From Syntrophaceae bacterium (lineage in GTDB: Bacteria > Desulfobacterota > BSN033 > UBA1163), in assembly GCA_013388645.1 (NCBI GenBank), contig JACAEV010000070.1, positions 1 through 35,136 on the forward strand: a stretch of DNA of 35,136 nucleotides. The letters are read 5' to 3'. The notes under the pieces are model-generated. The model was given only the letters and a program-made list of their open reading frames with translations. It searched no databases and was not told the DNA's origin. Of the stretch, positions 8,148-27,816 are shown piece by piece. Both the position numbers and the translations under genes were made by a program. Every line of letters begins with the position of its first letter. The first letter of the stretch is position 1.

Positions 8148-8171
8148 CTCTAATTCCCTCACGAATGATTC

Positions 8172-8202
8172 CATAACAAAAACATCAACTTTTTGTCAAA
8201 TA
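8172..8202 (-). promoter_or_regulatory. 31-bp promoter/operator element upstream of ade
   Basis: Read on the minus strand this is TATTTGACA, 12 unrelated bases, then TTTTGTTATG. It contains TTGACA and TGTTAT separated by 15 bases, which can be read as -35 and -10 boxes or as an imperfect inverted repeat. The same element with identical spacing precedes the thioesterase gene (13,890-13,920). Transcription would start just upstream of the GAGGG ribosome site that serves ATG 8147. Confidence 0.55.
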
Positions 8203-8317
8203 CCCCACAGATGACGTAGCTTTTAATCATTTTTCAATAAATTTGTAATCTGTGCAATCGTTTCATCATCATGTCATCCGAGACCTTTGGATTTTTTCAG
8301 AATCTCGATATTACTCC

Positions 8318-8347
8318 TTGACAAGATAAATCTTTAGCCATTAGAAT
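8318..8347 (+). promoter_or_regulatory. Sigma70-type promoter for the molybdoenzyme operon
   Basis: TTGACA (8318-8323) and TAGAAT (8342-8347) are 18 bases apart, matching consensus at 6/6 and 5/6 positions. The predicted start near 8354 leaves a leader of about 100 nt before the beta-subunit ATG at 8452. The leader shows no recognised riboswitch. Confidence 0.55.
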
Positions 8348-8451
8348 TTTTAAAAATGGGTCGCCGTTCCGTCTCACTCCATGATACCATTTAAAATATT
8401 CAGCTTGTGCGGTGCCCAAGGCGCTTTACGCATTCCATAAAGGAGAACACG

Positions 8452-9426
8452 ATGCGTCTTCCTAAATTTGAATACCTGGAACCGAGATCACTTAAAAAGG
8501 CTTCTGAAGCGCTCACCGCCGATCCTAAAGGGACGTTCCTTCTCGCCGGAGGGACCGATCTCCTCGTCAACATGAAGCATGGAGTCATTCAGCCTAAACG
8601 TCTGATCAACCTCAAGGCCATTCCTCATCTCAATTATATCACGGAGGGAAAGGATGGATTAAGGATCGGAGCCCTGACTACACTTCATGACCTCGCTTCT
8701 TCCACTCTGGTCCAAGACAAATACCCTGTTCTTGGTCAATGTGCGCTGGAGGTAGCCGCTTATACGCATCAGGTGATGGGAACGTTGGGGGGGAACCTCT
8801 GTCAGGAAAACCGTTGCCGTTACTATAACCAATCCGTTTTCTGGAGAAGTGCGAGAGCTCCATGTTACAAGGTGGGAGGGGAAATCTGCCATGTGGTTCG
8901 AAAATCGAAAGAATGCCATTCGACTTATCGTGGAGATATGGCTCCTGTTCTCATCGCCATGGATGCCAAGGTGAAACTCGTGGGTTGGATGGGCAACCGG
9001 ACCATTCCTCTTAAAAGGCTTTATACTCAGATTGGGAAAAAACCTCTCTCGTTGAGGAAAGGCGAAATTCTAAAGGAAATTTTTATTCCCTCACCCTCTG
9101 GTCAAACGCTCTACCTTAAATGGAGACTGAGAGGGACACTCGAATTCCCTATGGTTTCCTTAGCCCTTCATCTTGAAAAAAACGGAGAGGGGAACATTGA
9201 TCGGGCAAAGGTCATCCTGAGTGGATTGGGCACAGGCCCTTTGGAGGCGTTTGAGATAGAAAAAATGCTTAAGGGCGTATCCCTTGACGATGGGGTGATT
9301 GAAAAAATCTCCAATCAGATGGTCAAAGAGATCTCTCCCATGCGAACCTCCATCGCCTCCCCTAATTATCAAAGAAAGATGGCAGGAATTTTATTGAGAC
9401 AAGGATTAGAGAAATTCAAGTCCTAA
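8452..9426 (+). CDS. hcrB: 4-hydroxybenzoyl-CoA reductase-type beta subunit (FAD, [4Fe-4S])
   Basis: FAD-binding medium subunit of a xanthine-oxidase-family enzyme. The FAD motifs are LLAGGTDLLVNMKHG near residue 31 and the GTLGGNLCQ segment near 110. Directly after this lies a cysteine-rich insertion with Cys117, 122, 138, 146 and 155. Such an insertion, holding an extra [4Fe-4S] cluster, is the hallmark of the 4-hydroxybenzoyl-CoA reductase beta subunit. The spacing 122/138/146/155 fits the ligand positions I recall for the Thauera enzyme. ATG 8452 is chosen over GTG 8407 because AAAGGAGA precedes it and MRLPKFEYLEP is a normal family start (324 aa). It is first in an operon beta-gamma-alpha. 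An alternative is another aryl-CoA or purine substrate in the same family. Confidence 0.82.
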   Translation: MRLPKFEYLEPRSLKKASEALTADPKGTFLLAGGTDLLVNMKHGVIQPKRLINLKAIPHLNYITEGKDGLRIGALTTLHDLASSTLVQDKYPVLGQCALEVAAYTHQVMGTLGGNLCQENRCRYYNQSVFWRSARAPCYKVGGEICHVVRKSKECHSTYRGDMAPVLIAMDAKVKLVGWMGNRTIPLKRLYTQIGKKPLSLRKGEILKEIFIPSPSGQTLYLKWRLRGTLEFPMVSLALHLEKNGEGNIDRAKVILSGLGTGPLEAFEIEKMLKGVSLDDGVIEKISNQMVKEISPMRTSIASPNYQRKMAGILLRQGLEKFKS

Positions 9427-15657: not shown

Positions 15658-16224
15658 ATGATCGAAATTAAGATTGCAAAAAAGATTCGGCAACTCCGCC
15701 AGGAGAGTCAAATGACCCAAGACATGTTGGCAAGAAAGGTTGGGTTCTCCAAAGCCTTCATTTCCAAAATCGAAAATCACGCCACCTCCCCTTCCATTGC
15801 AAGCCTCTCTAAAATTGCTACTGCCTTAGGGGTCAGTATTTCTGCATTATTGGATGAAGTTCCAGAAACAAATCAGGATATCATCTTAGTAAGAAAGGGA
15901 CAGAGGAAGAAGATCGTTGGGCCAGGGTCCAATATTGGCTTTGCCTATGAGTCTCTTGCCTTTAAGAAAAAGAAGAAAACCATGGAGCCCTTTATTGTCA
16001 AATATCCTCCAGGAAGTCATGTCAAAAGGCTTTTCGAACATGAAGGGGAGGAAATGGTGTTTATTCTCCAAGGAAAAATCAAACTCATTTATGGAAGCAA
16101 GGTATTTATCCTCAAGGAAGGGGACGCAGCCTATTTTAATCCAGCAATCCCTCACCGGGGAGAAAGTATCGGAAATAAAGAAGGAGTTGGCCTATGCGTA
16201 CTGGTGCCTCCGAGCAAGAGATGA
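15658..16224 (+). CDS. XRE-family regulator with C-terminal cupin domain
   Basis: A 188-aa transcription factor. Residues about 8-64 form an XRE helix-turn-helix (KIRQLRQESQMTQDMLARKV, then FISKIENHATSPSIASLSKI). A linker leads to a cupin sensor at about 110-180 (HEGEEMVFILQGKIKLIYG, then LKEGDAAYFNPAIPHRGES). Regulators of this build often sense a small metabolite and control the adjoining catabolic operon. Its TGA overlaps the next gene's ATG (ATGA at 16221), so it is co-translated with the dehydrogenase complex it probably regulates. No ribosome site is visible before ATG 15658. The upstream sequence has several GTTGA/TCAAC half-sites. Confidence 0.9.
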   Translation: MIEIKIAKKIRQLRQESQMTQDMLARKVGFSKAFISKIENHATSPSIASLSKIATALGVSISALLDEVPETNQDIILVRKGQRKKIVGPGSNIGFAYESLAFKKKKKTMEPFIVKYPPGSHVKRLFEHEGEEMVFILQGKIKLIYGSKVFILKEGDAAYFNPAIPHRGESIGNKEGVGLCVLVPPSKR

Positions 16225-17225
16225 AAGGGAAAAAAACGAAGCCAATAAACCACATAAAGGCTTATGATTCTGAAACGTTACTCGCTCTCTATCAGAAGAT
16301 GGTGACGATCCGCAAATTTGAAACTCTTGCCGGTGAGCTGTTTGCCGCTGGGAAAATCCCTGGCTTCATCCATTTATCCATCGGTCAGGAAGGATCGTCG
16401 ACCGGTGTCTGCTCGATACTTCGACCAGACGACTATATCATCACGACTCATCGTGGCCACGGCCATGTCATTGCTAAGGGAGGGGATCTGAAGAGGATGG
16501 TCGCAGAACTGATGGGGCGTAGAACAGGATATTGCAAAGGCAAAGGTGGATCGATGCACATCGCTGATTTTTCATTGGGCATCCTGGGTGCAAACGGTGT
16601 AGTAGCAGGTGGGTTTCCCATCATCGTAGGAGCTGGTCTCTCCATCAAACTTCGCAAAACAGATCAAGTGGCTGTCTGTTTCTTCGGGGACGGTGCCTCT
16701 AATCGAGGACCGTTCCACGAGGCCTTGAATATGGCAGCGATCTGGAAGCTTCCTATCTTATTTGTTTGCGAAAACAATTGTTATGCATCAACCACAAGGA
16801 CCTCCTATGCCTGTTCCGTCATCGATATTGCTGCCAGGGCAAAAGGTTACGACATCCCTGGCGTAAGTGTGGATGGGAACGATGTATTAGCTGTGAGGCA
16901 CGCTGCTGCTGAAGCTGTGGATCGGGCTCGACGGGGTGAGGGGCCCACGCTGCTTGAGAACAAGACTTACCGCCGCCGCGGCCACTTTGAGGGAGATCCC
17001 CAGAGGTATCGGGATCAGAAAGAGGTGGTGGAATGGGAGCAAAAAAATGATCCCATCCTCCGCTTCGCCTCTATCCTCAAAGAAAAAAAGTTATTGACAC
17101 AAGACCTGGAGGATAAGATCGCTGCCGGGATCGATGCCGATCTTAAAGAAGCGCTTCAATTCGCCGAACAGAGTGAGTGGCCCAAACCAGAGGAGGCGTT
17201 GGAGGATCTGTTCTTTAACTTCTAA
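16221..17225 (+). CDS. acoA: Acetoin/2-oxoacid dehydrogenase E1 alpha subunit
   Basis: Thiamine-diphosphate-dependent alpha chain that, with E1 beta, cleaves and decarboxylates or oxidises an acetoin- or 2-oxoacid-type substrate. The TPP-binding motif runs from GDGASNRGPFHEA to CENN, with the usual spacing of about 30 residues. HRGHGHVIAKG and GKGGSMHIAD are also characteristic. The tail motif RRRGHFEGDPQRYR resembles acetoin-dehydrogenase-type chains more than pyruvate dehydrogenase, so I favour the Aco type, though pyruvate cannot be excluded. ATG 16221 overlaps the regulator stop and is preferred over ATG 16194, giving 334 aa. It is first of the four enzyme genes. Confidence 0.85.
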   Translation: MKGKKTKPINHIKAYDSETLLALYQKMVTIRKFETLAGELFAAGKIPGFIHLSIGQEGSSTGVCSILRPDDYIITTHRGHGHVIAKGGDLKRMVAELMGRRTGYCKGKGGSMHIADFSLGILGANGVVAGGFPIIVGAGLSIKLRKTDQVAVCFFGDGASNRGPFHEALNMAAIWKLPILFVCENNCYASTTRTSYACSVIDIAARAKGYDIPGVSVDGNDVLAVRHAAAEAVDRARRGEGPTLLENKTYRRRGHFEGDPQRYRDQKEVVEWEQKNDPILRFASILKEKKLLTQDLEDKIAAGIDADLKEALQFAEQSEWPKPEEALEDLFFNF

Positions 17226-17243: not shown

Positions 17244-18224
17244 ATGTCAGAGAGAATCATAAGCTGTTCCGCCGCCATTGCAGAAGCTCTCACCGAAGAG
17301 ATGTCCCGAGATGATAGGATCTTTGTCATCGGTGAAGATTTGGTTTATCATGGCGGCATTTTTGGCCAGTTCAAAGGCCTTCCTGAAAAATTTCCTGGTC
17401 GAATCATCGACACGCCCATTTCCGAGACCTGCATCGTGGGATCTGGTTTGGGTGCTGCCCTGACAGGCATGCGACCTCTGGTTGATTTACACTTTGCCGA
17501 TTTTACGACCTGTGCGATGGATGAGATTGCCAATCAATCCGCAAAGATCCGATACATGTTTGGAGGACAGGTTAAGATTCCTCTCGTCATCTGGGCACCG
17601 GATGGAGCCGGGTTGGGAGCAGCTGCTCACCATTCTCAATCATTGGAGAGCTGGTTCATCCACACCCCAGGATTGAAGGTGGTGGTACCGAGTGAACCCG
17701 CCGATGTGAAAGGACTTCTAACGGCGGCACTTCGGGATGATGATCCGGTTATCTTTTTCCAACACAAGAAACTTTTTGCAAAGGAGGGCCCTGTGCCTGA
17801 AGGAGAGTATGTCATTCCCCTGGGGAAAGCAGCAGTCAAACGCAGTGGGGGTGATGTAACCATTTTAACTTACGGCTCTGGATTTTATTTAAGTACAGAG
17901 GCGATGAAGGAACTCTCTGGGATGGGTATTGAAGCCGAGTTGATTGATCTTCGCACTTTAAAACCTCTTGATTTTGAAACGATCGCCGAGTCCTTGAAAA
18001 AAACCTATAGAGCGGTGGTGGTCCATGAGGCGTGCCTGACAGGGGGCTTCGGTGCTGAATTAGTTGCGAGGATTAGCAGCGAACTTTTTGATTATCTGGA
18101 CGCTCCTGTACTTCGTGTGGCAGCGAAGGATGTCCCCATCCCCTTCTCTCCACCTCTGGAGAAGTTTGTCCTTCCCAGTGTGGAAGACATTGTTAAGGCC
18201 GCCAGACAAGTGACCTACCGTTAA
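17244..18224 (+). CDS. acoB: Acetoin/2-oxoacid dehydrogenase E1 beta subunit
   Basis: Beta chain of the heterotetrameric E1 component, 326 aa. The N-terminal pyrimidine-binding domain shows VIGEDLVYHGGIFGQFKGL, TPISETCIVGSGLGAALTG and LHFADFTTCAMDEI. The C-terminal transketolase-like domain shows DVTILTYGSG, IEAELIDLRTLKPLD and VVVHEACLTGGFGAEL. ATG 17244 follows AGAGAGGA, 18 bp after the alpha stop. With the alpha chain it forms the TPP active site at the subunit interface. Annotation as pyruvate dehydrogenase E1 beta would be equally defensible from sequence alone. Confidence 0.9.
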   Translation: MSERIISCSAAIAEALTEEMSRDDRIFVIGEDLVYHGGIFGQFKGLPEKFPGRIIDTPISETCIVGSGLGAALTGMRPLVDLHFADFTTCAMDEIANQSAKIRYMFGGQVKIPLVIWAPDGAGLGAAAHHSQSLESWFIHTPGLKVVVPSEPADVKGLLTAALRDDDPVIFFQHKKLFAKEGPVPEGEYVIPLGKAAVKRSGGDVTILTYGSGFYLSTEAMKELSGMGIEAELIDLRTLKPLDFETIAESLKKTYRAVVVHEACLTGGFGAELVARISSELFDYLDAPVLRVAAKDVPIPFSPPLEKFVLPSVEDIVKAARQVTYR

Positions 18225-18257: not shown

Positions 18258-19670
18258 TTGGAAAAAGAAGTTAAAAAATTTGATGCGATCATCATTGGGA
18301 GCGGCCCTGGCGGTTATCTTGCGGCTATTTTAGTTACTCAAAAGGGACAATCTGCAGCCATCATTGAAAAAGGCGATTTCGGTGGAACGTGTTTAAACCG
18401 TGGTTGCATCCCAACCAAAGCACTGTTGAGAGAGGCCAACCTTTTAAATGAAATGATTAAATCCGGAGTCAGGAATAATAAAGAGGAGATCCACATTTTT
18501 TTTAAAAAGGCGATGGAGAAGAAGGATATGGCTGTTCAGCAAGTTGTGGGCGGCCTCCGGAATCTCCTAAATCGTGATCGCATGACGGTTTTCCAGGGAG
18601 AAGCCTCATTTACTGATCCCCATACCCTCCGGGTTTTAAGAGATGGGACAACCTTAGACACGATCCGCTCCAATCAAATCATCATTGCCACGGGGGCCAT
18701 GTTAAAAGAAGAATCCCAATTCAGAAGGGATGGACAAAAGGTTCTCGGAAGCGATGATCTTTTGAAAATGACGGAACTTCCAACAAGCATGGCTGTTGTC
18801 GGAGGGGGGAGACGGGGGGTGGAGTTTGCAACCTTCTTTAACACCTTTGGGGTGCAAGTGACCCTGATTGAAAAGCAGAATCGTATCCTTCCAAAGATGG
18901 ATCGAGAAATCTCTGTTCGATACAAAAGCCTTTTGGCCAAAAGCAATATAAAAGTACTAACCGATACAGAGGCCATCGGCATGGAAATCTCAAGCGATCA
19001 AAAAACAGTCCGTCTTCAAGTAATTTCCAAACATAAATCAGAGGTCATTCACTGCGAAAAAATATTATGGGTGGGGGATCGGCAGGGATATGTGAGTGGG
19101 CTCAATCTCGAGAAGGCCTCGCTCACTTTGAAGGATGGATTTATACCGGTCAATTTGCACATGAAAACAACATCTCCTGGAATTTATGCTGTAGGGGATG
19201 TGGTCGGCCGAGACTGCCTAGCCCACAAGGCCTTTATGGAAGCAAGAATTGCTGTAGAAAATATGCTGGGTCAAACTACCCAGATCGATGATCGGTTGAT
19301 CCCCATTTGCCTTTATTCTAATCCGGAAGCTGCATCCATCGGTCTCTCAGAGGAAGAGGCAAAAAAGGAATGGGGTGAGGTGAATATTGGGAAATTTCCT
19401 TTTATGGCATGTGGTCAATCGATTGCCACACAAAACCAGGAAGGGATGGTAAAAATCATCTCTGAGAAAAAGTATGGGGAGATTTTAGGGGTCCATCTCC
19501 TTGGTCCCCGGGCTTCTGACCTCATCCATTTGGGTGCCATGGCGATGAGGCATGAAATTGGAATAGAGGGGATCAAAGAGATGATCTTTGCCCACCCCAC
19601 TTTTTCAGAGGCCTTCTTTGAGGCAGCCCTGGATACCTCCGATGAAGCGATTCACATGATGAAAGGATAA
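18258..19670 (+). CDS. lpdA: Dihydrolipoyl dehydrogenase (E3)
   Basis: FAD flavoprotein that reoxidises the dihydrolipoyl arm of E2 and reduces NAD. The FAD-binding motif is IIIGSGPGGYLAAI (residues 11-24). The redox disulfide is in GGTCLNRGCIPTK (Cys45, Cys50). The NAD-binding loop is VVGGGRRGVEFATFF, the second FAD motif GIYAVGDV, and the catalytic dyad His446-Pro...Glu451 lies in AHPTFSEAF. 470 aa is standard. The start is TTG at 18258 with AAAGGAG upstream; no closer ATG fits. The usual Gly-x-Gly-x-x-Gly of the NAD loop reads GGGRRG. It lies between E1 beta and E2, as in aco-type operons. Confidence 0.93.
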   Translation: MEKEVKKFDAIIIGSGPGGYLAAILVTQKGQSAAIIEKGDFGGTCLNRGCIPTKALLREANLLNEMIKSGVRNNKEEIHIFFKKAMEKKDMAVQQVVGGLRNLLNRDRMTVFQGEASFTDPHTLRVLRDGTTLDTIRSNQIIIATGAMLKEESQFRRDGQKVLGSDDLLKMTELPTSMAVVGGGRRGVEFATFFNTFGVQVTLIEKQNRILPKMDREISVRYKSLLAKSNIKVLTDTEAIGMEISSDQKTVRLQVISKHKSEVIHCEKILWVGDRQGYVSGLNLEKASLTLKDGFIPVNLHMKTTSPGIYAVGDVVGRDCLAHKAFMEARIAVENMLGQTTQIDDRLIPICLYSNPEAASIGLSEEEAKKEWGEVNIGKFPFMACGQSIATQNQEGMVKIISEKKYGEILGVHLLGPRASDLIHLGAMAMRHEIGIEGIKEMIFAHPTFSEAFFEAALDTSDEAIHMMKG

Positions 19671-19757: not shown

Positions 19758-20954
19758 ATGGCGACAACCGTTGTGATGCCCAAATTGGGCCTGACCATGA
19801 CAGAGGGGACAATTGAGAAATGGTTAAAACAAGAAGGAGATCGAATTGAAAAGGGAGAGCCCTTGGTCGAAATCATCACAGAAAAGATCAATTTTCAATA
19901 CGAGTCTCCGGCCTCCGGCATTCTACAAAAAATTCTCCATCATGAAGGGGAGGTTGTCCCTGTGACCACACCCATCGCCATCATTGCCGAAGAAGAGGAG
20001 GCCGTAGTAGAGGTTGAAGGAATGAAACCCGAAGTTTCGGTAGAGAAGCCCATTTTTGTTGCCGCAAGGAAAGAATCGAAGGAACCCACTAAAAGAATTT
20101 TTGCCTCCCCCATTGCCAGGAAGATCGCTCAGGAAAAAGGGGTTGATCTTTCCTCTCTGAAGGGTTCTGGTCCGGGAGGAAGAATCATTAAGATAGACGT
20201 GATGAAGGCTCCCGAAAAGGTGGCTATAAAAGAGATGGAAATTCCTCAACAGGTTCCGAAAGCGGCAGAAAAAATCATTCCGCTCAAGGGGATCAGGCGA
20301 ATCATCGCCAAGAGGATGACCGAGAGTTTTCAGAATATTCCTCATTTCTACCTCTCTCTTGAGGTCGATATGACCGCCTGTCTGTTGCTAAGAGAACAAT
20401 TGAAAGAGGAGGTAGAGAAACGGACTCAGGTCCGGTTAACACTTACAGACCTATTGGTTAGAATGGTGGCATCGGCGATCAAAGATCATCCCATCATCAA
20501 TTCCCGCGTCGAAGGGGATCGAATCCATCTCTTAGATGAGATCAATATTGGTGTGGCGATCGCGATCGAAAATGGTCTGATCGTCCCAGTGGTCCATCAT
20601 GCGGACCGGAAATCGTTGACCGAAATTGCCATCACGATGAGAGACCTGACGCAAAAGGCGAGGGAGGGAAAACTCTCTCTCGAAGATGTGGAAGGAGGAA
20701 CTTTTACCCTTTCCAATATGGGGATGCTCGGAATCGATAAACTGAATCCCATTATCAATCCTCCGGAATGCTCAATCTTAGGGGTTGGGAGAACGATTGA
20801 AAAACCAATCGTCATGGGCGGGGAGATCAAGATCCGGCCCATGGCCTGGTTCAGTTTATCCTCGGATCATAGGATCGTCGATGGCGCTACAGCCTCACCC
20901 TTCTTGAATCGCATTAAAATGTTGATTGAAAATCCCTCACTACTTCTTCTTTGA
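19758..20954 (+). CDS. acoC: Dihydrolipoamide acyltransferase (E2)
   Basis: Core of the dehydrogenase complex that transfers the acyl group from lipoamide to CoA. It has a single lipoyl domain (residues 1-78) with the modified lysine Lys43 in ITEKINFQYESPASG; a linker; a peripheral-subunit-binding domain at about 114-150 (FASPIARKIAQEKGVDLSSL, GSGPGGRI); and a C-terminal catalytic domain ending in the active-site motif SSDHRIVDGA (His371, Asp375). The TEKI context of the lipoyl lysine is a variant of the usual TDKA. GGAG lies before ATG 19758. 87 bp separate it from E3. 398 aa is normal for a one-lipoyl E2. Confidence 0.92.
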   Translation: MATTVVMPKLGLTMTEGTIEKWLKQEGDRIEKGEPLVEIITEKINFQYESPASGILQKILHHEGEVVPVTTPIAIIAEEEEAVVEVEGMKPEVSVEKPIFVAARKESKEPTKRIFASPIARKIAQEKGVDLSSLKGSGPGGRIIKIDVMKAPEKVAIKEMEIPQQVPKAAEKIIPLKGIRRIIAKRMTESFQNIPHFYLSLEVDMTACLLLREQLKEEVEKRTQVRLTLTDLLVRMVASAIKDHPIINSRVEGDRIHLLDEINIGVAIAIENGLIVPVVHHADRKSLTEIAITMRDLTQKAREGKLSLEDVEGGTFTLSNMGMLGIDKLNPIINPPECSILGVGRTIEKPIVMGGEIKIRPMAWFSLSSDHRIVDGATASPFLNRIKMLIENPSLLLL

Positions 20955-20962
20955 GAAAGATT

Positions 20963-21457
20963 ATGGAAAATAAGATAAGAGTAAAATGGGCAAAGGGGAA
21001 AACACGGAAGATCGTTTCAGCCAGGGTTCTCCCAGGAACAGACCTCATCTCAGGGATCGAAAAGATTTGTTTCGAGAACAAGATTGAAAGTGGAGCCTTC
21101 AGTGTGATCGGAAGCCTTGAAAAATCGACCTTCGTCCTCCCTGTCATAAAAAAAGGAACAAAGAAAGGGGTCAGTTATGGAGAACCCCAGACGGTCCTAG
21201 GACCACTCGAAATCCTTTCCGGCAAGGGATTCATAAGCCAAGACCGGGAAAGCAAGAACGGACTCTTCATCCACTTCCATGCCATTTTTAGCGATGCAAA
21301 GGGAAAGGTTTACGGGGGTCATTTCCTCCCAGGGGGAAATCCGGTCCTTTTGACTCTTGATGTCATCATCATGGAATTTGATGAGGTCTCTCTCTCAAGG
21401 GAGGAAGACACGGAAATTGGAATAAGGGTGATTACCCCATCAGAAAAAGCAAGGTAG
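20963..21457 (+). CDS. PPC/DUF296-domain protein
   Basis: A 164-aa single-domain PPC (DUF296) protein. These small trimeric domains occur alone in prokaryotes and fused to AT-hooks in plants; the bacterial role is poorly defined. The family's metal-site-like signature is seen: LFIHFHAIFSDAKGKVYGGH (two spaced histidines and a GGH loop), and the N-terminal RVLPGTDLISGIEKICFENK. ATG 20963 is only eight bases after the E2 stop, so it is co-transcribed and probably co-translated with the dehydrogenase complex. A start TTG at 20951 is possible but less likely. The linkage suggests sensing of an intermediate or complex assembly; this is inference only. Confidence 0.85.
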   Translation: MENKIRVKWAKGKTRKIVSARVLPGTDLISGIEKICFENKIESGAFSVIGSLEKSTFVLPVIKKGTKKGVSYGEPQTVLGPLEILSGKGFISQDRESKNGLFIHFHAIFSDAKGKVYGGHFLPGGNPVLLTLDVIIMEFDEVSLSREEDTEIGIRVITPSEKAR

Positions 21458-21530
21458 AAAAATGAGTTCAATTTCCATGAAGACGAAAGACTTACTTATA
21501 CAGACCTAATACAAACGAATTAATTTATTT

Positions 21531-21582
21531 TACCCCCCACCCTCCCCTCCCCCCTCAAGAGGAGAGGGGTAGGGAGGGGGTT
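21531..21582. repeat. G/C-tract inverted-repeat element
   Basis: A C-rich half (ACCCCCCACCCTCCCC) and a G-rich half (GGGGTAGGGAGGGGGTT) meet at CCTC-AA-GAGG, giving a long near-perfect stem. It lies between the PPC gene and the alcohol dehydrogenase and may double as a bidirectional terminator, though no T-run follows. Similar C-tract intergenic elements are found in many related genomes (general knowledge). Confidence 0.5.
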
Positions 21583-21628
21583 GCGTAAAATTCGCTCATT
21601 TTAAAGAAACCCTGAAAGGAAAAAAACC

Positions 21629-22702
21629 TTGAAAGCCAAGGCAATGGTGCTCGTGGAGCCGGGGCGTCTGGAGCTTCAAGAGTTCGATGTGCAGCCACCA
21701 GCCCCGGAAGAGATTCTGATCAAGACCCGAATCACCTCAATCTGTTCAACGGACATTAAAGTCTTTCATGGTCAGGTAAGTTCAGCGCATTATCCGCTAA
21801 TCATGGGGCATGAGTTTACCGGCGAAGTGGTAGAGATCGGATCTCAAGCGGTTAAAAAATACTCCATTGCAGTGGGTGACCGGGTAACTCCGGAGCCATA
21901 TATCCCGTGCGGCCACTGTGCTTGGTGTCGAACGGACTATCATTATCACAACTGCGCAACAGTTGGACTCTATGGAATATCTCTGGCCTGCAACCAACCA
22001 CCCCACTTGTTGGGAGGCTACTCGGAGTATGTGTATTTGATAGCCGGGACAATCTTGCATAAGTTGGCGCCAGCTACACCCGATCTTGCCGGCAGCCTTT
22101 CCTCTGTGGTGGGTAATGGGGTACGCTGGGTCAAAACCTTGGGACAGATGAGCTTTGGTCAGAGCTTGGTGATCAGTGGAGCGGGCTCTCAGGGTTTATG
22201 TGCTTTGGCGGCCGCCCGAGAAGCCGGCGTGAGTCCCATCGTCATGTTAGGACTGTCTTCCGATCAGGCACGCTTTGCCTTGGCCAAGGAAATCGGGGTG
22301 GATCACATTGTTGAGGTGGACCGTCAGGACCCTCTTCAGTCGGTGCCGGATCTCCTGAGCGGGGCGCCTGATGTGGTCATCGAAACTTCGGGTGTACCAA
22401 TAGCCATTCAGACCGCTATCAAAATGGTACGACGATCCGGCCGAGTGGTTTCCATAGGTTTGTCCGGCGGCAAGCTGACCCCTATTGTTTTCGATGATCT
22501 CGTCTGGCGGGACATCACATTGGTATGCGGTAAAGGACAGGCTGGAAATGTAGTCGATGCCATGCATCTCATTAATTCTGGCAAATACCCCTTTGATAAG
22601 ATCAACAACTTTCAATATCAGCTGCCGCAATTGGGACGCGCTTTGGCTGAAACCGAGAAACCGCCACCCGGTTTCATCAAGGGAGCAGTGGTTTTTGGGT
22701 AG
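21629..22702 (+). CDS. Zinc-dependent alcohol/polyol dehydrogenase (MDR family)
   Basis: Medium-chain NAD(P)-dependent dehydrogenase, 357 aa. The catalytic zinc ligands appear as Cys in TSICSTDIKVFHG and His-Glu in MGHEFTGEVVEIG. The structural zinc loop is CGHCAWCRTDYHYHNC, with four cysteines. The Rossmann motif is VISGAGSQGLCALAAA. The family includes threonine, sorbitol and 2,3-butanediol dehydrogenases; the substrate is not determined by these motifs. TTG 21629 with GAAAGGA upstream gives the expected N-terminus; ATG 21644 is an alternative. The gene looks richer in GC than its neighbours, which hints at separate acquisition. It precedes the TRAP genes on the same strand with a 139-bp gap. 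Confidence 0.85.
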   Translation: MKAKAMVLVEPGRLELQEFDVQPPAPEEILIKTRITSICSTDIKVFHGQVSSAHYPLIMGHEFTGEVVEIGSQAVKKYSIAVGDRVTPEPYIPCGHCAWCRTDYHYHNCATVGLYGISLACNQPPHLLGGYSEYVYLIAGTILHKLAPATPDLAGSLSSVVGNGVRWVKTLGQMSFGQSLVISGAGSQGLCALAAAREAGVSPIVMLGLSSDQARFALAKEIGVDHIVEVDRQDPLQSVPDLLSGAPDVVIETSGVPIAIQTAIKMVRRSGRVVSIGLSGGKLTPIVFDDLVWRDITLVCGKGQAGNVVDAMHLINSGKYPFDKINNFQYQLPQLGRALAETEKPPPGFIKGAVVFG

Positions 22703-22841
22703 TAAGGAAGGAGGTGATTCATAAAAGAAAAATGCAAAACGATAGGAGAGGTAGGAAAGAATTAATGGAAACGAAAATGATGATGACGACTTGAAAGGTA
22801 AATTTGCTTTACCAGATGTGAAATTTGAAAGGAGGCCTGAA

Positions 22842-23888
22842 ATGATAAAGAAACAATGTGCCGCTTATATCGTATTAGTGGTCGTGATTGGATTTTTAAT
22901 CACTGCCGGGCAGAGTCATGCCCAACAGGTTAAGTGGAAAGGCCAGGGCTGCTTCCCGCTCAATAACCCACTGGGTAAACTGACCATCGCACTCTGGAAA
23001 GAAAATGTAGAAAAAATGAGTGGCGGTAGGATGACCATTCAACTCCATGACGCGGGTGAGATCGTTCCTCCCACAAAGATATATGATGCTGTCCGCGATG
23101 GGCTTCTCGATTTCGGGATGAATACTCCCGCATGGCAGAAGGGAAAATACCCGGCAGGAGATCTTTATTACACCCTTCCGGGAGGAGTATTGGAGTTTAA
23201 CGACCTGATCATCTGGATGTATGCCGGGGGAGGGAAGGAGCTGGCTCAGGAAATGTATAAAGAAGAGCTTATTGTATTTCCATTAGGATTGACCCCTCCG
23301 GAAGAAGTTTGGTCTAAGAAGCCCGTCAAAAGCCTGGCGGACATAAAGGGTATGAAGATTAGAGCGGCAGGCCTCAGCATGGAACTCTGGGAGAAATTAG
23401 GTGCTTCTGTGGTTTTGCTTGCTGCTGGAGAGGTGGTGCCCGCTCTTCAGAGAGGGTTGATCGATGGAGTTGAATTTTTAGAGGCATCCGCAGATTATAC
23501 AATTGGCCTCCATGAGGTTTGCAAATATCGGTTCGGTCCGCCCGTGCACATGTCCAACAATATATTCCAGTTGATGATCAAGACGAAGTCTTGGAAGGAA
23601 CTGCCTGCTGACCTGAAGGCGGTTGTTGAAGGAGCTGCGATGGCAGCGACGTTCCAGGGGTATACAAAGTGGTGGGTAGAAACAATTGAATTTGATAAGA
23701 AGATCCGAGACTACGGGGTCGTCACAACCAAGCTCTCACCAAAGGACCAGGCTAAAACCAGAGAGCTCACAATGCAAATACTGGATGAAAAATCAAAACA
23801 AGATCCCTTCTTCGCCAAAGTATGGAAGTCGCAAAGAGACTTTATTCAAAGATATAAACCTTACTATGACTTAACCAAATTCGATTAA
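22842..23888 (+). CDS. dctP: TRAP transporter solute-binding protein
   Basis: Periplasmic receptor of a tripartite ATP-independent transporter (DctP family), which captures organic acids for sodium- or proton-coupled uptake. A signal peptide is clear: a lysine-containing start, a hydrophobic stretch to about residue 20, and cleavage after SHA (Ala27). The mature chain has the family features EMSGGRMTIQLHDAGE-like (here KMSGGRMTIQLHDAGE), LADIKGMKIRAAG with the carboxylate-binding Arg, and ALQRGLIDGVEF. ATG 22842 is preceded by AAAGGAGG; an upstream TTG at 22791 would only extend the signal region. 348 aa. It is followed by a strong hairpin and then dctQ. The ligand is unknown. Confidence 0.93.
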   Translation: MIKKQCAAYIVLVVVIGFLITAGQSHAQQVKWKGQGCFPLNNPLGKLTIALWKENVEKMSGGRMTIQLHDAGEIVPPTKIYDAVRDGLLDFGMNTPAWQKGKYPAGDLYYTLPGGVLEFNDLIIWMYAGGGKELAQEMYKEELIVFPLGLTPPEEVWSKKPVKSLADIKGMKIRAAGLSMELWEKLGASVVLLAAGEVVPALQRGLIDGVEFLEASADYTIGLHEVCKYRFGPPVHMSNNIFQLMIKTKSWKELPADLKAVVEGAAMAATFQGYTKWWVETIEFDKKIRDYGVVTTKLSPKDQAKTRELTMQILDEKSKQDPFFAKVWKSQRDFIQRYKPYYDLTKFD

Positions 23889-23972: not shown

Positions 23973-24518
23973 ATGAAAGTTCTTAACTATATTGATAAGA
24001 TTAGCGAATGGACGGGAATCGTTGTTTCATGGATCATCGTCCCCCTCACCTTTGTGGTCGTTTACGAGGTCATCATGCGACACTTCTTCAATGCCCCCAC
24101 TGGATGGGGATATGACACGTGTTGGATGCTTTACAGCGCCCAGTTTATGATTGGAGGGGCCTATACCCTTCTCAAAAAGGGCCACGTCAGGATAGATATT
24201 GTTTACAATACACTCTCCTTACGAGGGAAGCTTATTTTCGATACAATTGTTTACGCTGTGGTGTTTTCTTTCATCGCGATCCTATTCACCTGGGCCGGTG
24301 TGAGATTTGCCTACGAGGCATGGGCCACTAACGAAAAGCTCTCCACTACGAACTGGTTCTTCCCTTCCGGTCCAATTAAAACAGTCATCCCTATTGCATT
24401 CTTTCTGCTGAGTCTCCAATCTCTGACTGAACTCATTCGAAGTATTTCAACTCTCTTTAACCCCGTTAGAAACTCCAACGGGGGCATTAAACTCCGCCCG
24501 AATGATTCTAAGATCTAA
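23973..24518 (+). CDS. dctQ: TRAP transporter small permease subunit
   Basis: Four-helix small membrane subunit (DctQ) that pairs with DctM. Hydrophobic segments are ISEWTGIVVSWIIVPLTFVV, the MLYSAQFMIGGAYTLLKKGH region with the family's GGAYxLxxxxHVRID signature, VYAVVFSFIAILFTWAGVRF, and VIPIAFFLLSLQSLTELI. ATG 23973 follows GAGGGA. At 181 aa the chain carries about 20 extra C-terminal residues (NPVRNSNGGIKLRPND) encoded by a stem-loop sequence that looks like an inserted repeat, not conserved protein. Confidence 0.92.
   Translation: MKVLNYIDKISEWTGIVVSWIIVPLTFVVVYEVIMRHFFNAPTGWGYDTCWMLYSAQFMIGGAYTLLKKGHVRIDIVYNTLSLRGKLIFDTIVYAVVFSFIAILFTWAGVRFAYEAWATNEKLSTTNWFFPSGPIKTVIPIAFFLLSLQSLTELIRSISTLFNPVRNSNGGIKLRPNDSKI
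24461..24483 (+). repeat. Hairpin within the 3' end of dctQ
   Basis: CCCCGTT and AACGGGG form a seven-bp stem around AGAAACTCC, inside the last codons of dctQ. The sequence reads NPVRNSNG in frame, unlike a DctQ tail. It resembles the short CCCCGTTAGAAA-type intergenic repeats found in related genomes. Confidence 0.45.
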
Positions 24519-24573: not shown

Positions 24574-25908
24574 ATGAGCATTGATCAGGTTGCTGCAATT
24601 GTCATGTTTTTCCTCCTCCTGGCCATGGTGATCGGGGGGGTGCATCTGGCTTTCTCTTTGATGTTCGTCGGCGTCATTTTCGGTCTCATCTTTCAGGGCC
24701 CCTCCATCTTTCCCATGTCTATGTTACAGATTTATGATGTCATGGAAAGTGAAATTCTTATTGCAGTCCCTCTGTTCGTTTTTATGGGAACCATCCTCGA
24801 GAAAACTGGGGTCGCCGAAAAGGTTTACCAAGGTCTATATGAACTCTTCGGCCCGGTGAGGGGAGGACTCGCCATTGCCACCATTGTGACCTGCACGATT
24901 TTTGCCGCATGCACGGGCGTCATTGCCGCCACCGTAACCACCATGACCTTATTGGCGATTCCATCCATGCTTAAGCGAAAATATGACAAAGGATTAGCCA
25001 CTGGGGTCGTCTGCGCTGGAGGAAGCTTAGGGATTCTCATCCCTCCGAGTGTGATGCTGGTCATGTACGGACCTTTGGCAAATCTATCGGTGGCGAAACT
25101 TTTTGCAGGGGCCCTAATCCCAGGACTTCTTCTGTCTGCCCTGTACCTGGGCTATATTCTTATACGATCTTGGCTTCGACCGAGCACCGCACCTGCTATA
25201 TCCACCGAAGAGAGACCTCCCATTGATTTAAAGCTGCTCAAGAACGTTGCTATTCATATGCTGCCTTCCTTTTGCTTGATTGTTGCAGTCTTGGGGTCTA
25301 TTATCGCAGGGATCGCCTCCCCCACCGAGGCATCAGGAGTCGGAGCATTTTGCGCCCTGGTTTTGGCCGCTGGGTACCGTAAGTTAACCCTTCAAAATGT
25401 GAAGGAAGCTGCCTACACCACCCTGATTGTTACAGCAATGGTCTTTTTCATCATTGTTGGCGCTGGAATATTTAACGCTGTATTTATTTATTTGGGAGGG
25501 GGCGAAGTGGTAAGAAATGCCCTCCTGAGCCTTCCATTTGGCAGGTGGTTCATTCTGGGCACCATGATGTTCATCCTCTTCATCGGGGGCTTTTTTATCT
25601 CATGGCAGGGGCTTCTCTACATGCTTGTTCCCATCTTTCTGCCCGTGGTTTCGGCATTGGGCTTCGATCAATTGTGGTTTGGATTGCTCGTATGCGTCAA
25701 CTTACAAATGTCCTTTTTGACTCCTCCCTTTGCCTATGCCATCTTCTTTGTCAAAGGAGCTGCCCCTCCTGAAATCACCACATGGGATATTTACAGAGGG
25801 GTTGTTCCATTCGTCACTCTCCAGGCAATCGGACTTTTTCTATGTATCGTCTATCCAGAGATCATCTTATGGCTTCCCAGGGTTACTCTCGGAGGAGGCG
25901 GAAGGTGA
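24574..25908 (+). CDS. dctM: TRAP transporter large permease subunit
   Basis: The 444-aa DctM channel subunit, about a dozen membrane helices, which moves the solute delivered by DctP using an ion gradient. Recognisable motifs are IAVPLFVFMGTILEKTGVAE, CTIFAACTGVIAATVTTMTL, ATGVVCAGGSLGILIPPSVM and GIASPTEASGVGAFCALVLA. These include the GxLxxLIPPS and PTEAxG signatures of the family. ATG 24574 follows AAAGGGGAAA. It completes the dctPQM set, followed after 39 bp by an SDR dehydrogenase on the same strand. Confidence 0.95.
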   Translation: MSIDQVAAIVMFFLLLAMVIGGVHLAFSLMFVGVIFGLIFQGPSIFPMSMLQIYDVMESEILIAVPLFVFMGTILEKTGVAEKVYQGLYELFGPVRGGLAIATIVTCTIFAACTGVIAATVTTMTLLAIPSMLKRKYDKGLATGVVCAGGSLGILIPPSVMLVMYGPLANLSVAKLFAGALIPGLLLSALYLGYILIRSWLRPSTAPAISTEERPPIDLKLLKNVAIHMLPSFCLIVAVLGSIIAGIASPTEASGVGAFCALVLAAGYRKLTLQNVKEAAYTTLIVTAMVFFIIVGAGIFNAVFIYLGGGEVVRNALLSLPFGRWFILGTMMFILFIGGFFISWQGLLYMLVPIFLPVVSALGFDQLWFGLLVCVNLQMSFLTPPFAYAIFFVKGAAPPEITTWDIYRGVVPFVTLQAIGLFLCIVYPEIILWLPRVTLGGGGR

Positions 25909-25947
25909 AAGATGGATTAAATGGAATCAACGAGTAAAGGAGAAAAA

Positions 25948-26748
25948 ATGGGGGAACGCTTAAGAAATAGAGTGGCCATTGTTACAGGAGCTGGATCCGT
26001 AGGGCCGGGCTGGGGAAATGGAAAGGCCACTGCGGTATTATTCGCACGTGAAGGGGCAAAGATTTTTGCTGTGGATATTAATCCTGCTGCAGCCGAGGAG
26101 ACGAAATCGATCATAAATCAAGAGGGTGGGATTTGTACGGTGATGAAGGTCGATGTTTCTAAGTCTGACGAAGTCAAATCCATGGTTGATCAATGCATCA
26201 AGACTTACAGCCGGATCGATATCCTACACAATAATGTAGGCATCGTTGTGCTCGGTGGATTGGAGGAAACCAGCGAGGAAACCTGGGACCGTGTGTTGGC
26301 GATTAATCTCAAGAGCATGTTTTTGACATGCAAATATTGCCTTCCACACATGGAAAGTCAAGGGGGGGGTGTGATCATCAACATCGCTTCCGTTGCTGCG
26401 ATTCGTTATACGGGTATCCCTTATATCACCTATTATGCGAGCAAAGCAGGAATTCTTGGATTAACCCAAGGGATTGCGCTACAATACGCAGCTAAAAATA
26501 TTCGTGCCAACTGTATCTTGCCGGGATTGATGGATACTCCATTGATTCGTGAACCGCTGAAGGATTTCTATGCCGCTGGGGATATAGACAAAATGCTTGA
26601 AATCCGAAATCAGCAGTGCCCGACAGGGAAAATGGGAGAGGCTTGGGATGTGGCCCATGCTGCTCTGTTTTTGGCATCGGATGAGGCAAAATATATCACC
26701 GGTGCACAACTGATTGTCGATGGCGGACTCACCTGTAAATTTATCTGA
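25948..26748 (+). CDS. SDR-family NAD(P)-dependent oxidoreductase
   Basis: Classical short-chain dehydrogenase, 266 aa. The nucleotide motif TGAGSVGPGWGNGKATA has an unusual inserted GPGWGN. Further on are ILHNNVGI, the serine in INIASVAA (near residue 147), the catalytic pair in YYASKAG (Tyr near 163, Lys near 167), and a C-terminal ITGAQLIVDGGLTCKFI. ATG 25948 follows AAAGGAGA and is chosen over ATG 25921. It is probably the last gene of the TRAP operon, where it would oxidise or reduce the imported hydroxy- or oxo-compound. The real substrate cannot be read from the motifs. Convergent with ilvC, 12 bp away. Confidence 0.9.
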   Translation: MGERLRNRVAIVTGAGSVGPGWGNGKATAVLFAREGAKIFAVDINPAAAEETKSIINQEGGICTVMKVDVSKSDEVKSMVDQCIKTYSRIDILHNNVGIVVLGGLEETSEETWDRVLAINLKSMFLTCKYCLPHMESQGGGVIINIASVAAIRYTGIPYITYYASKAGILGLTQGIALQYAAKNIRANCILPGLMDTPLIREPLKDFYAAGDIDKMLEIRNQQCPTGKMGEAWDVAHAALFLASDEAKYITGAQLIVDGGLTCKFI

Positions 26749-26760
26749 ATCGAAGAAAAA

Positions 26761-27816
26761 TTACGTCTTCTTCCAATTTTCCGGCCGAAGTTCCCGAACC
26801 TTTGCCCCTGCCCGCCACATTTCAGAATTTCCCATTTCAGCAAGCTCAGTATTCAATTTTTCTCGATAGTCCGGCTGACTATTTTTTTCAAGCACGATTT
26901 TGGCTTCAGTCCCGTTGGCAACGCGTTCATAAAGATCAGAAAACAAAGGAGCGACAGCATTCCGGAATTTCCCCTTCCAATCCAAAGCGCCCCGTTGGGC
27001 CGTTGTGCTACAGTTTGCATATAACCAGTCCATCCCTTTTTCGGCAATGAGCTTAATCAGACTCTGGGTGAGCTCTTCGACCGTCTCATTAAAGGCTTCA
27101 CTGGGACTATGACCATGTTTTCTTAGCTCGTGATACTGTGCCTCCATGATTCCGGCAATCGCTCCCATTAAAACACCCCTCTCTCCCACTAAATCACTAA
27201 AGACCTCTTTCTCAAAGGTGGTATGAAAGAGATATCCTGACCCCATCGCAATCCCTAAGGCGATCGCCTTTTCTTCCGCTTTTCCAGTGTAATCCTGGAA
27301 CACCGCAAAACTGCTATTGATGCCACTTCCCTCCAGGAAGTTTCGCCTCACAGAAAGTCCTGACCCTTTGGGAGCGACCAAGACTACATCCACATTTTGA
27401 GGTGGGATAACGCCCGTCAATTCTTTGTAAGTAATAGAAAAACCGTGAGAGAAAAAAAGGGTTTTACCTTCAGTGAGATAGGGTTTTAGGGTTGGCCAGA
27501 ACGCCTTCTGACCTGCATCTGAAAGCAGATATTCAATCACCGTTCCTTTTGCAGAGGCTTCCTCTAAAGGGAAAAGTGTCACACCGGGAACCCACCCATC
27601 TTTCAAAGCTTTGTTCCACGAGGCCGTATCTTTTCGCTGTCCGACGATCACGCGAATCCCATTGTCCCGCATATTAAGACTCTGCCCCGGTCCTTGAACA
27701 CCATACCCCAGTACAGCAACGATTTCTCCTTTAAGCACCTGCTGGGCTTTTGAAAGGGGAAACTCTTCACGGGTGACGACTCTCTCTTCCACTCCACCAA
27801 AATTAATCATAGTCAT
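26761..27816 (-). CDS. ilvC: Ketol-acid reductoisomerase
   Basis: KARI, 351 aa, catalyses the second step of valine/isoleucine synthesis: NADPH-dependent rearrangement and reduction of acetolactate or acetohydroxybutyrate. The NAD(P) motif is VLGYGVQGPGQSLNM (Gly37-Gly44) followed by VGQRKDTASW, where Arg61/Lys62 suit NADPH. The metal-ligand region EVFSDLVGERGVLMG and the ETVEELTQSL segment carry the conserved acidic residues. AAGGAGG lies seven bases before ATG 27816. No ilvB, ilvN, ilvD or leuA is adjacent, so it stands alone here. It is divergent from the 28,087 gene across about 270 bp, which contains a TATAAT at about 27,979 but no convincing -35. Confidence 0.93.
   Translation of the reverse strand: MTMINFGGVEERVVTREEFPLSKAQQVLKGEIVAVLGYGVQGPGQSLNMRDNGIRVIVGQRKDTASWNKALKDGWVPGVTLFPLEEASAKGTVIEYLLSDAGQKAFWPTLKPYLTEGKTLFFSHGFSITYKELTGVIPPQNVDVVLVAPKGSGLSVRRNFLEGSGINSSFAVFQDYTGKAEEKAIALGIAMGSGYLFHTTFEKEVFSDLVGERGVLMGAIAGIMEAQYHELRKHGHSPSEAFNETVEELTQSLIKLIAEKGMDWLYANCSTTAQRGALDWKGKFRNAVAPLFSDLYERVANGTEAKIVLEKNSQPDYREKLNTELAEMGNSEMWRAGAKVRELRPENWKKT

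Follow-up and report, generated by a model that had tools for sequence, protein, structure and literature searches.

A PPC/DUF296 subfamily recurring with TRAP transporter and acetoin-dehydrogenase-like genes: a likely role in organic-acid degradation and a tentative decarboxylase assignment

What does a PPC/DUF296 protein do when its gene follows the E2 gene of a lipoamide-dependent dehydrogenase complex after only eight bases? The question arises from a contig of a Syntrophaceae bacterium (JACAEV010000070.1, assembly GCA_013388645.1), whose 35,136 nucleotides, the whole stretch analyzed, are called the window here. Many bacteria and archaea encode PPC/DUF296 proteins; structures have been solved, and no settled function was found for them in the literature searched. 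A sequence-only reading had tied the gene to the complex and had offered metabolite sensing or regulation of the complex as its function. As argued below, it is likely that the protein plays a role in a degradation pathway for organic acids fed by a TRAP transporter.

The eight-base spacing read earlier is borne out by the open reading frames (Table 1), and the PPC product matches PF03479 (PCC) with 82.8 bits over residues 18-140 (Pfam; cut-off 25). An alternative in-frame start, a TTG, lies at position 20951. The E2 carries a lipoyl, an E3-binding and a 2-oxoacid_dh catalytic domain (Pfam), and the XRE-cupin regulator has two relatives in the PPC locus L059/L083. The PPC gene had been taken for the last member of the operon, which it need not be: a zinc alcohol dehydrogenase (ADH), the TRAP genes and an SDR dehydrogenase all follow on the same strand from position 21629, after a gap of 171 bases. 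The predicted hairpin in this gap has weaker related copies on two other contigs.

Table 1. Features of the PPC operon and its surroundings in the window.
Feature	Position	Strand	Basis
XRE-cupin regulator, probable operon regulator	15658-16224	+	HTH_3 and Cupin_2
E1 alpha	16194-17225	+	PF00676; uncertain start codon, overlap with the 3' end of the regulator ORF
E1 beta	17244-18224	+	PF02779/PF02780; NF006667 354.5, cut-off 321; tree placement
E3, dihydrolipoyl dehydrogenase	18258-19670	+	TIGR01350 468.8 bits, cut-off 408.8
E2, lipoyl acyltransferase	19758-20954	+	PF00198 293 bits, PF00364, PF02817
Spacer between E2 stop and PPC ATG, 8 bases	20955-20962	+	E2 stop ends at 20954
PPC/PCC/DUF296 protein, 164 aa	20963-21457	+	ORF from ATG; PF03479; AlphaFold model
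Motif HFHAIFSDAKGKVYGGH, codons H104 to H120, proposed metal site (H104, H106, H120)	21272-21322	+	Conservation
Strong predicted hairpin between PPC and ADH, lacking a T-run	21527-21591		-36.2 kcal/mol, z -3.4
Zinc alcohol dehydrogenase, L-threonine 3-dehydrogenase kind	21629-22702	+	TIGR00692 best, 160 bits, below the cut-off of 458
TRAP substrate-binding protein DctP	22791-23888	+	PF03480; NF037995 78.2, cut-off 50
TRAP small permease DctQ	23973-24518	+	tblastn vs. annotated TRAP small permease of L020, 1.9e-9
TRAP large permease DctM	24574-25908	+	tblastn vs. annotated TRAP large permease of L020, 4e-24
SDR dehydrogenase, perhaps another member of the pathway	25921-26748	+	PF13561; homologue in same-genus locus L025

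The closest relative, of the same genus (L025/L079), has the order regulator-E1a-E1b-E3-E2-PPC-DctP-DctQ-DctM as in the window. The spacing is repeated as well (E2 match ending at 5612, PPC starting at 5624), and at the ADH position, the match to the window ADH covers 25 residues only. The genome assembly, ~95% complete, holds one PPC gene and two E2 genes; hence, the chance of an accidental E2-PPC adjacency is, by our own estimate for a 3.95-Mb genome, about 1 in 1000. An acetolactate link of the operon through KARI was considered and rejected. The KARI gene (26764-27816, minus strand; TIGR00465 ilvC 323 bits, cut-off 226), the sole one found in the genome, is convergent with the operon and stands tail to tail with the SDR gene. 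Of the loci scanned by tblastn with this gene, none gave a match apart from L025/L079, L027 and L093, which is the window's own locus, and in L027, an ABC-ATPase-like ORF separates KARI from PPC. KARI is therefore not counted as part of the system.

PPC genes were searched for in 17 genomes of the window's order and 395 of its phylum, in further draws from the phyla of Sedimentibacter (398), Borrarchaeum (119) and an actinomycete (246), and in one genome-contig scan (14 loci) and a plasmid collection (19 records). A PPC match was present in 166 of the 395 genomes of the window's phylum and in 88 of the 119 of the archaeal draw. The window's subfamily was delimited with a profile built from 20 members: among the fetched loci, members score at least 122 bits and other PPC proteins at most 103, the line of 120 bits having been set after this gap in the scores was seen. 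A FastTree tree of 123 rows places the 34 subfamily members together inside one group of 37 rows with 96% local support; its other three rows are the first PPC proteins of the Variovorax and Roseomonas tandem pairs described below and one archaeal row.

Gene linkage was compared for 80 distinct PPC proteins (34 of the subfamily, 46 others) within 10 kb, many flanks being shorter. At least two of E1a, E1b and E2 accompany 18 of the 34 subfamily members vs. none of the 46 other PPC proteins (Fisher 6e-9), TRAP genes 24/34 vs. 4/46 (Fisher 8e-9), and complex or TRAP genes 28/34 vs. 4/46; the p-values are descriptive only, as the subfamily members are related. Clustered at 70% identity, the subfamily has E1/E2 genes in 12, TRAP genes in 19 and either in 21 of 27 clusters. 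The nearest E1/E2 gene is at most 250 bases from PPC in 12 of the 34 members. L082, L088, L089, L091, L169 and L172 have their nearest complex gene at a distance of 7.2-7.8 kb, on the opposite strand in L082, L169 and L172. Within 10 kb of the sequence examined, 16 of the 34 members have no E1/E2 pair. By BLAST, neither complex nor TRAP genes were found in the examined flanks of six (L081, L178, L087, L090, L064 and L177): L081 and L178 sit near contig ends, L087 comes from a spirochaete, L090 from an actinomycete, and L064 may have two tripartite tricarboxylate transporters, as read from ORF sizes.

The 46 control rows are from loci chosen by score and size of contig and are not dereplicated; L026, L027, L028 and L066 are exceptions, having already been without complex genes in their 1.5-kb flanks when chosen. 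Four further rows are exceptions too, being plasmid matches taken with their annotation seen (L022 and L023), and these are the only controls with TRAP genes. On these Roseomonas and Variovorax plasmids, the PPC genes stand in tandem (L022, 5433-6393; L023, 5430-6378), with thiolase, acyl-CoA ligase and TRAP genes nearby. In the tree, the window's subfamily is joined by the first PPC of each pair, the second falling with the other PPC proteins.

The order of the genes varies. PPC follows E2 in the window and in L171, precedes it in L065, L166 and L173, and directly adjoins it in all of these and in L079. It adjoins E1a in L024, L085 and L020; in archaeal loci (L080, L092, L175 and L176, the last apparently being the same contig as L092), PPC and E1a are divergent. 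In the loci outside the window's genus, the PPC identity to the window member is 30-47%, and this varied order at such identity argues for a working link over the inheritance of one block. Among carriers with a name, the complex accompanies PPC in Deltaproteobacteria, in Bacillota (Sedimentibacter, with Sedimentibacter saalensis DSM 13558 as L089, and Vescimonas) and in archaea; Borrarchaeum (L080) and Sifarchaeum are placed among the Asgard archaea. On a Sinorhizobium plasmid (L021), TRAP genes lie 5.9-7.3 kb from PPC. TRAP and ADH genes were sought in the archaeal loci L080 and L092, with no match; these loci and the six members lacking both complex and TRAP count against the pathway reading, as do the six loci with a distant complex gene and the short ADH match of L025.

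In Deltaproteobacteria and Bacillota, the recurrent companions of the subfamily are TRAP, dehydrogenase and acetoin-dehydrogenase-like E1/E2 genes; in archaea, they are E1/E2 genes. The link between PPC and the complex had been said to depend on the gene pair being found outside close relatives; it is found far outside them, so that the link stands on this count. A chance adjacency of E2 and PPC is rejected on the contrast between the subfamily and the other PPC proteins. As for what PPC is tied to, the lipoamide complex holds as a recurrent gene link, but the catabolic pathway, including its transporter, fits better as the partner than E2 itself: TRAP genes are present without an E1/E2 pair in 10 of the 34 members (within 10 kb of the sequence examined), and some of these ten have other catabolic enzymes encoded next to PPC.

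Pfam families were assigned to 144 neighbours of subfamily members, namely 138 of 233 proteins and six annotated L020 genes (near-duplicate loci, some antisense ORFs and four large proteins were dropped), and to 129 of 224 control neighbours. Around the subfamily, DctP (16), DctM (14), DctQ (11), ADH_N (9), 2-oxoacid_dh of E2 (8) and Transket_pyr (8) are followed by FCD (6), E1_dh (5) and NAD_binding_2 of the 6PGDH type (5), the rarest listed being sigma-54 activators and SBD_N of the DUF1537-type kinases (3 each). None of these is among the 25 families listed for the 129 control neighbours, of which the commonest has 7 members and the last 2; hence, each occurs at most twice in the controls. 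All seven ADHs compared (window, L082, L166, L089, L168, L024 and L063) have threonine 3-dehydrogenase as their top NCBIfam match, and those of L082 and L089 exceed the NF003808 cut-off. A dehydrogenase of the 2-hydroxy-3-oxopropionate reductase type is encoded in L084 (TIGR01505 356, cut-off 341) and, below this cut-off, in L089 and L063.

Other neighbours differ from locus to locus. In L063, an acetolactate-synthase-like TPP enzyme (below cut-off) is encoded directly 3' of PPC. L168 has a split transketolase, two ADHs and a glycyl-radical enzyme near PPC, and the array of L170 resembles it in size and BLAST matches. L084 combines a PF01261 TIM barrel and the 2-hydroxy-3-oxopropionate reductase with an IlvD-type dehydratase and a 3HCDH, the second gene 3' of PPC. 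A 3-oxo-tetronate-kinase-like gene (below cut-off) adjoins PPC in L090 and L165, and in L165, an Aldolase_II gene, which we take to belong to the OtnC-like decarboxylase family, is next to PPC as well. Thiolase, acyl-CoA ligase and SDR genes lie near PPC in L174, and a class-III aminotransferase gene in L061. Regulators in other loci are of the FCD/GntR and sigma-54 activator kinds. Judged from these families, the shared theme would be an acid importer, a 3-oxo-acid-making dehydrogenase and, often, a TPP enzyme for a ketol or 2-oxo acid. A PanB-like ketopantoate hydroxymethyltransferase gene stands directly 5' of PPC in L082 (9083-9931), and a PanB 63% identical to it is encoded ~4.3 kb from an other-clade PPC in L028.

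The AlphaFold model of the window PPC protein (mean pLDDT 93.8, pTM 0.87) has the PPC fold, overlaying 2h6l with a Z of 18.6 over 140 residues at 1.9 Å. Among the best 50 Foldseek matches listed, eight PPC chains come first (E 1.5e-9 or better), acetolactate decarboxylases next (E 8e-4 to 7e-3, probability 1.00), and the matches after them have probabilities of 0.66 and less. With VIA-align, PPC chains reach a Z of 17.3-18.6 and acetolactate decarboxylases one of 7.5-9.1; PTD012 follows with 4.6, and no other match exceeds 4.3. The overlay with acetolactate decarboxylase is moderate (rmsd 3.9-5.0), where a Z below 8 may mean only a common arrangement; that with PTD012 (1xcr; 118 residues, 4.0 Å) is close to the unrelated matches.

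The proposed metal site is an HxH...GGH triad, and every one of the 34 subfamily rows has all three histidines. Among the 94 rows of other PPC proteins, histidine is found in 91 at position 104, 91 at 106 and 84 at 120; the third is absent from ten rows (one being a gap) and the first two from three each. In hhalign, HFH...GGH of PPC falls on HLH...GGH of acetolactate decarboxylase, at a probability of 4-8% that is not significant, and neither PF03306 nor PF08925 matches the window protein at E 0.001. The core letters of an AT-hook, GRP or RGR, were sought in the window protein and are absent. With a pI of 9.2, the window copy is basic; the median pI across the subfamily is 5.6, and one of 34 members exceeds 8.5. 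On the missing core and this median, DNA binding by an AT-hook or by a basic subfamily is rejected. A trimer is suggested for prokaryotic PPC proteins in an excerpt of PMC4209074.

The kind of complex is suggested by the E1 trees. In those of E1 alpha and E1 beta, the PPC-linked E1s stand with references from loci read here as acetoin operons, apart from one PDH and one BCKDH reference, and the window E1 alpha is on the acetoin side of what is a small tree. The PPC-linked E1s form several separate groups, four unlabelled references are also on the acetoin side, and in the E1 alpha tree, the long PDH and BCKDH branches, with one reference each, meet. Two of the acetoin reference loci carry acetoin reductase and butanediol dehydrogenase genes; the Klebsiella acetoin locus is our own reading and was used in the E1 beta tree only. 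No PPC match was found in the ten reference E1 loci (L212-L221, 5.9-11.0 kb) or in the three loci read as classical acetoin-dehydrogenase operons. PPC is therefore not a general part of such complexes, and a subunit of every lipoamide complex, with 0 of 10 reference loci carrying PPC, is rejected.

Metabolite sensing or regulation of the complex, as offered by the sequence-only reading, is thus not favoured: classical acetoin operons do without PPC, PPC occurs without the complex, its place in the operon varies, and the closest non-PPC structural matches, among the best 50 listed, are decarboxylases. An enzymatic step fits better because of this varied place, the other catabolic neighbours and the decarboxylase matches. 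Tentatively, and at somewhat short of an even chance, we propose that the PPC protein uses a metal to decarboxylate 2-hydroxy-3-oxo acids and would hand a ketol to the acetoin-dehydrogenase-like complex, rather than acting as a regulator. The TRAP system would import a hydroxy or dihydroxy acid, and the threonine-3-dehydrogenase-like ADH would oxidize its C3 hydroxyl to give the 2-hydroxy-3-oxo acid; elsewhere, this oxidation may fall to the 2-hydroxy-3-oxopropionate-reductase-like enzyme, an SDR or 3HCDH. Acetolactate decarboxylase is thought to work via a metal-bound enediolate. The PPC protein would likewise hold its 2-hydroxy-3-oxo acid on the metal and remove CO2 through a metal-bound enediolate, and the ketol would be split by the E1-E2-E3 complex into an acyl-CoA and an aldehyde. 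As a worked example that is only a guess, 2,3-dihydroxy-2-methylbutanoate would give acetolactate, then acetoin and, finally, acetyl-CoA and acetaldehyde.

Several points stand against decarboxylation. Sequence profiles alone do not support a relation between PPC and acetolactate decarboxylase, L165 already has an Aldolase_II gene next to PPC, and an other-clade PPC by methylthioadenosine phosphorylase (L186) has no evident decarboxylation step. The strongest rival is isomerization. Here, the metal-bound enediolate would be reprotonated, turning the 2-hydroxy-3-oxo acid into a 3-hydroxy-2-oxo acid that E1-E2-E3 would process like any other 2-oxo acid. An isomerase is needed in the 3-oxotetronate pathway (roles OtnI and OtnC). 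The fold and the metal motif would serve it equally, the 3-oxo-tetronate-kinase-like genes of L090 and L165 adjoin PPC, the Aldolase_II gene of L165 could supply the decarboxylation, and a 2-oxoacid-type complex is near 18 of the 34 members. However, L084 has a separate TIM-barrel gene (PF01261), presumably of the isomerase kind, next to PPC, the relatives by fold with a known function are decarboxylases, and the E1s group with acetoin-dehydrogenase references, few as these are, which use a ketol; a ketol isomerase is accordingly judged unlikely. A metal enzyme of another chemistry, such as retro-aldol cleavage of hydroxy-oxo acids, hydrolysis of a lactone or ester, or detoxification of the aldehyde released by the complex, is improbable as well: PTD012 was earlier reported to hydrolyze p-nitrophenyl acetate (PMC12435205), and the partners vary by locus (thiolase and ligase in L174, transketolase and glycyl-radical enzyme in L168, aminotransferase in L061), but the commonest neighbours are an acid transporter and 3-oxo-acid-making dehydrogenases rather than a source of esters or lactones.

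A sensor or regulator that binds a pathway metabolite or the metal and regulates the complex or the operon is suggested by the basic window copy, by database records that call relatives 'PPC domain-containing DNA-binding protein' and by the plant PPC domains, which, according to an excerpt of PMC4209074, belong to DNA-binding AHL proteins. This is quite improbable in view of the missing AT-hook core, the low pI of the subfamily, the invariant His triad and the occurrence of PPC without the complex, and the loci encode regulators of other kinds (XRE-cupin in the window, FCD/GntR and sigma-54 activators elsewhere). That PPC is a mere passenger, adjacent by accident or through the shared ancestry of one block, would suit the members without pathway genes nearby and the single arrangement shared by close relatives. 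As the sole explanation, it is largely refuted by recurrence in varied order, with PPC proteins of such low identity outside the genus and a strong contrast with other PPC proteins, and its probability is very small.

Other PPC clades stand in other gene contexts. In L186 (7417-10990), the PPC gene directly adjoins that of methylthioadenosine phosphorylase, L187 and L188 being similar by ORF layout; Aldolase_II, PNP and SNF-symporter families number three each among the control neighbours, and the three loci may hold a methylthioadenosine salvage operon. The alpha subunit of citrate lyase (citF; 7307-8842, minus strand) is encoded ~0.9 kb from an other-clade PPC in L200. In L222 (2450-4549, minus strand), a protein of 699 residues ends in a PPC domain; its N-terminal part is thioredoxin-like by eye, with no NCBIfam match at E 1e-30, and the genome of L223 reportedly has a similar open frame. 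It appears doubtful, though worth stating, that all prokaryotic PPC/DUF296 proteins would be metal-dependent enzymes, a third branch of the acetolactate decarboxylase/C11orf54 superfamily that decarboxylates or isomerizes hydroxy-oxo acids, and that the plant AHL domain would descend from such an enzyme.

For the window's subfamily, the link to catabolic operons narrows the candidate substrates to a short list and allows a direct enzyme assay, making an old family testable. If the proposal is true, acid-degradation pathways of bacteria and some archaea gain a new enzyme step, the database label 'DNA-binding protein' would be corrected, and an enzymatic origin would be suggested for a plant transcription-factor domain. 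In the literature searched, with subscription journals mostly outside its reach, no paper pairs the DUF296/PPC domain with acetolactate decarboxylase, and none joins a PPC DNA-binding protein with a TRAP transporter and a dehydrogenase. The titles and starts of abstracts, mostly of plant AHL papers, mention no enzyme function of a bacterial PPC protein.

Compared with acetoin dehydrogenase operons (acoABCL), the window has the same E1a-E1b-E2-E3 set, and the PPC-linked E1s are on the acetoin-dehydrogenase side of the trees; the classical loci, on the contrary, lack PPC, and the window adds the TRAP genes and the threonine-dehydrogenase-like ADH. The solved prokaryotic PPC/DUF296 proteins, AF0104 (2h6l), PH0802 (2dt4), those of Salmonella (2hx0, 2nmu) and VCA0587 (2p6y), have entry titles that call them hypothetical, metal-containing, PPC or putative DNA-binding proteins. 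They belong to the same Pfam family, have the same fold (Z 17.6-18.6) and carry the His motif where the alignment was displayed, whereas their identity to the window protein is 20-28%, and the window's subfamily has an operon context of its own.

Alpha-acetolactate decarboxylase (ALDC; PF03306; 1xv2, 4bt2, 6inb) is the best non-PPC structural match among the best 50 listed, shares the HxH...GGH motif and acts on a fitting class of substrate. Its chains are longer (209-238 residues), and the window protein has neither PF03306 nor a significant profile similarity to it. In an excerpt of PMC10048662, the zinc ligands of the Bacillus subtilis enzyme are H191, H193 and H204. PTD012/C11orf54 (PF08925) is a weak structural match to the PPC model and differs by its 313-residue chain, its Pfam family and its mainly eukaryotic occurrence, the weak likeness of fold being its only tie to PPC. 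According to a 2025 commentary, it has been identified as a 3-dehydro-L-gulonate decarboxylase with a three-His zinc site and a fold related to acetolactate decarboxylase, its substrate is likened to acetolactate, and it occurs in fusions with dehydrogenase domains of the 3HCDH group, which includes a 3-oxo-acid-making enzyme (PMC12435205). Plant AHL transcription factors share the PPC domain, as stated in the excerpt of PMC4209074, and the window protein differs from them in lacking the AT-hook core.

AF0104, ALDC and PTD012 are grouped together in SCOP, in a fold superfamily of three branches. The two branches with a known function act on 2-hydroxy-3-oxo acids, and the prediction made here for PPC would extend that to the third.
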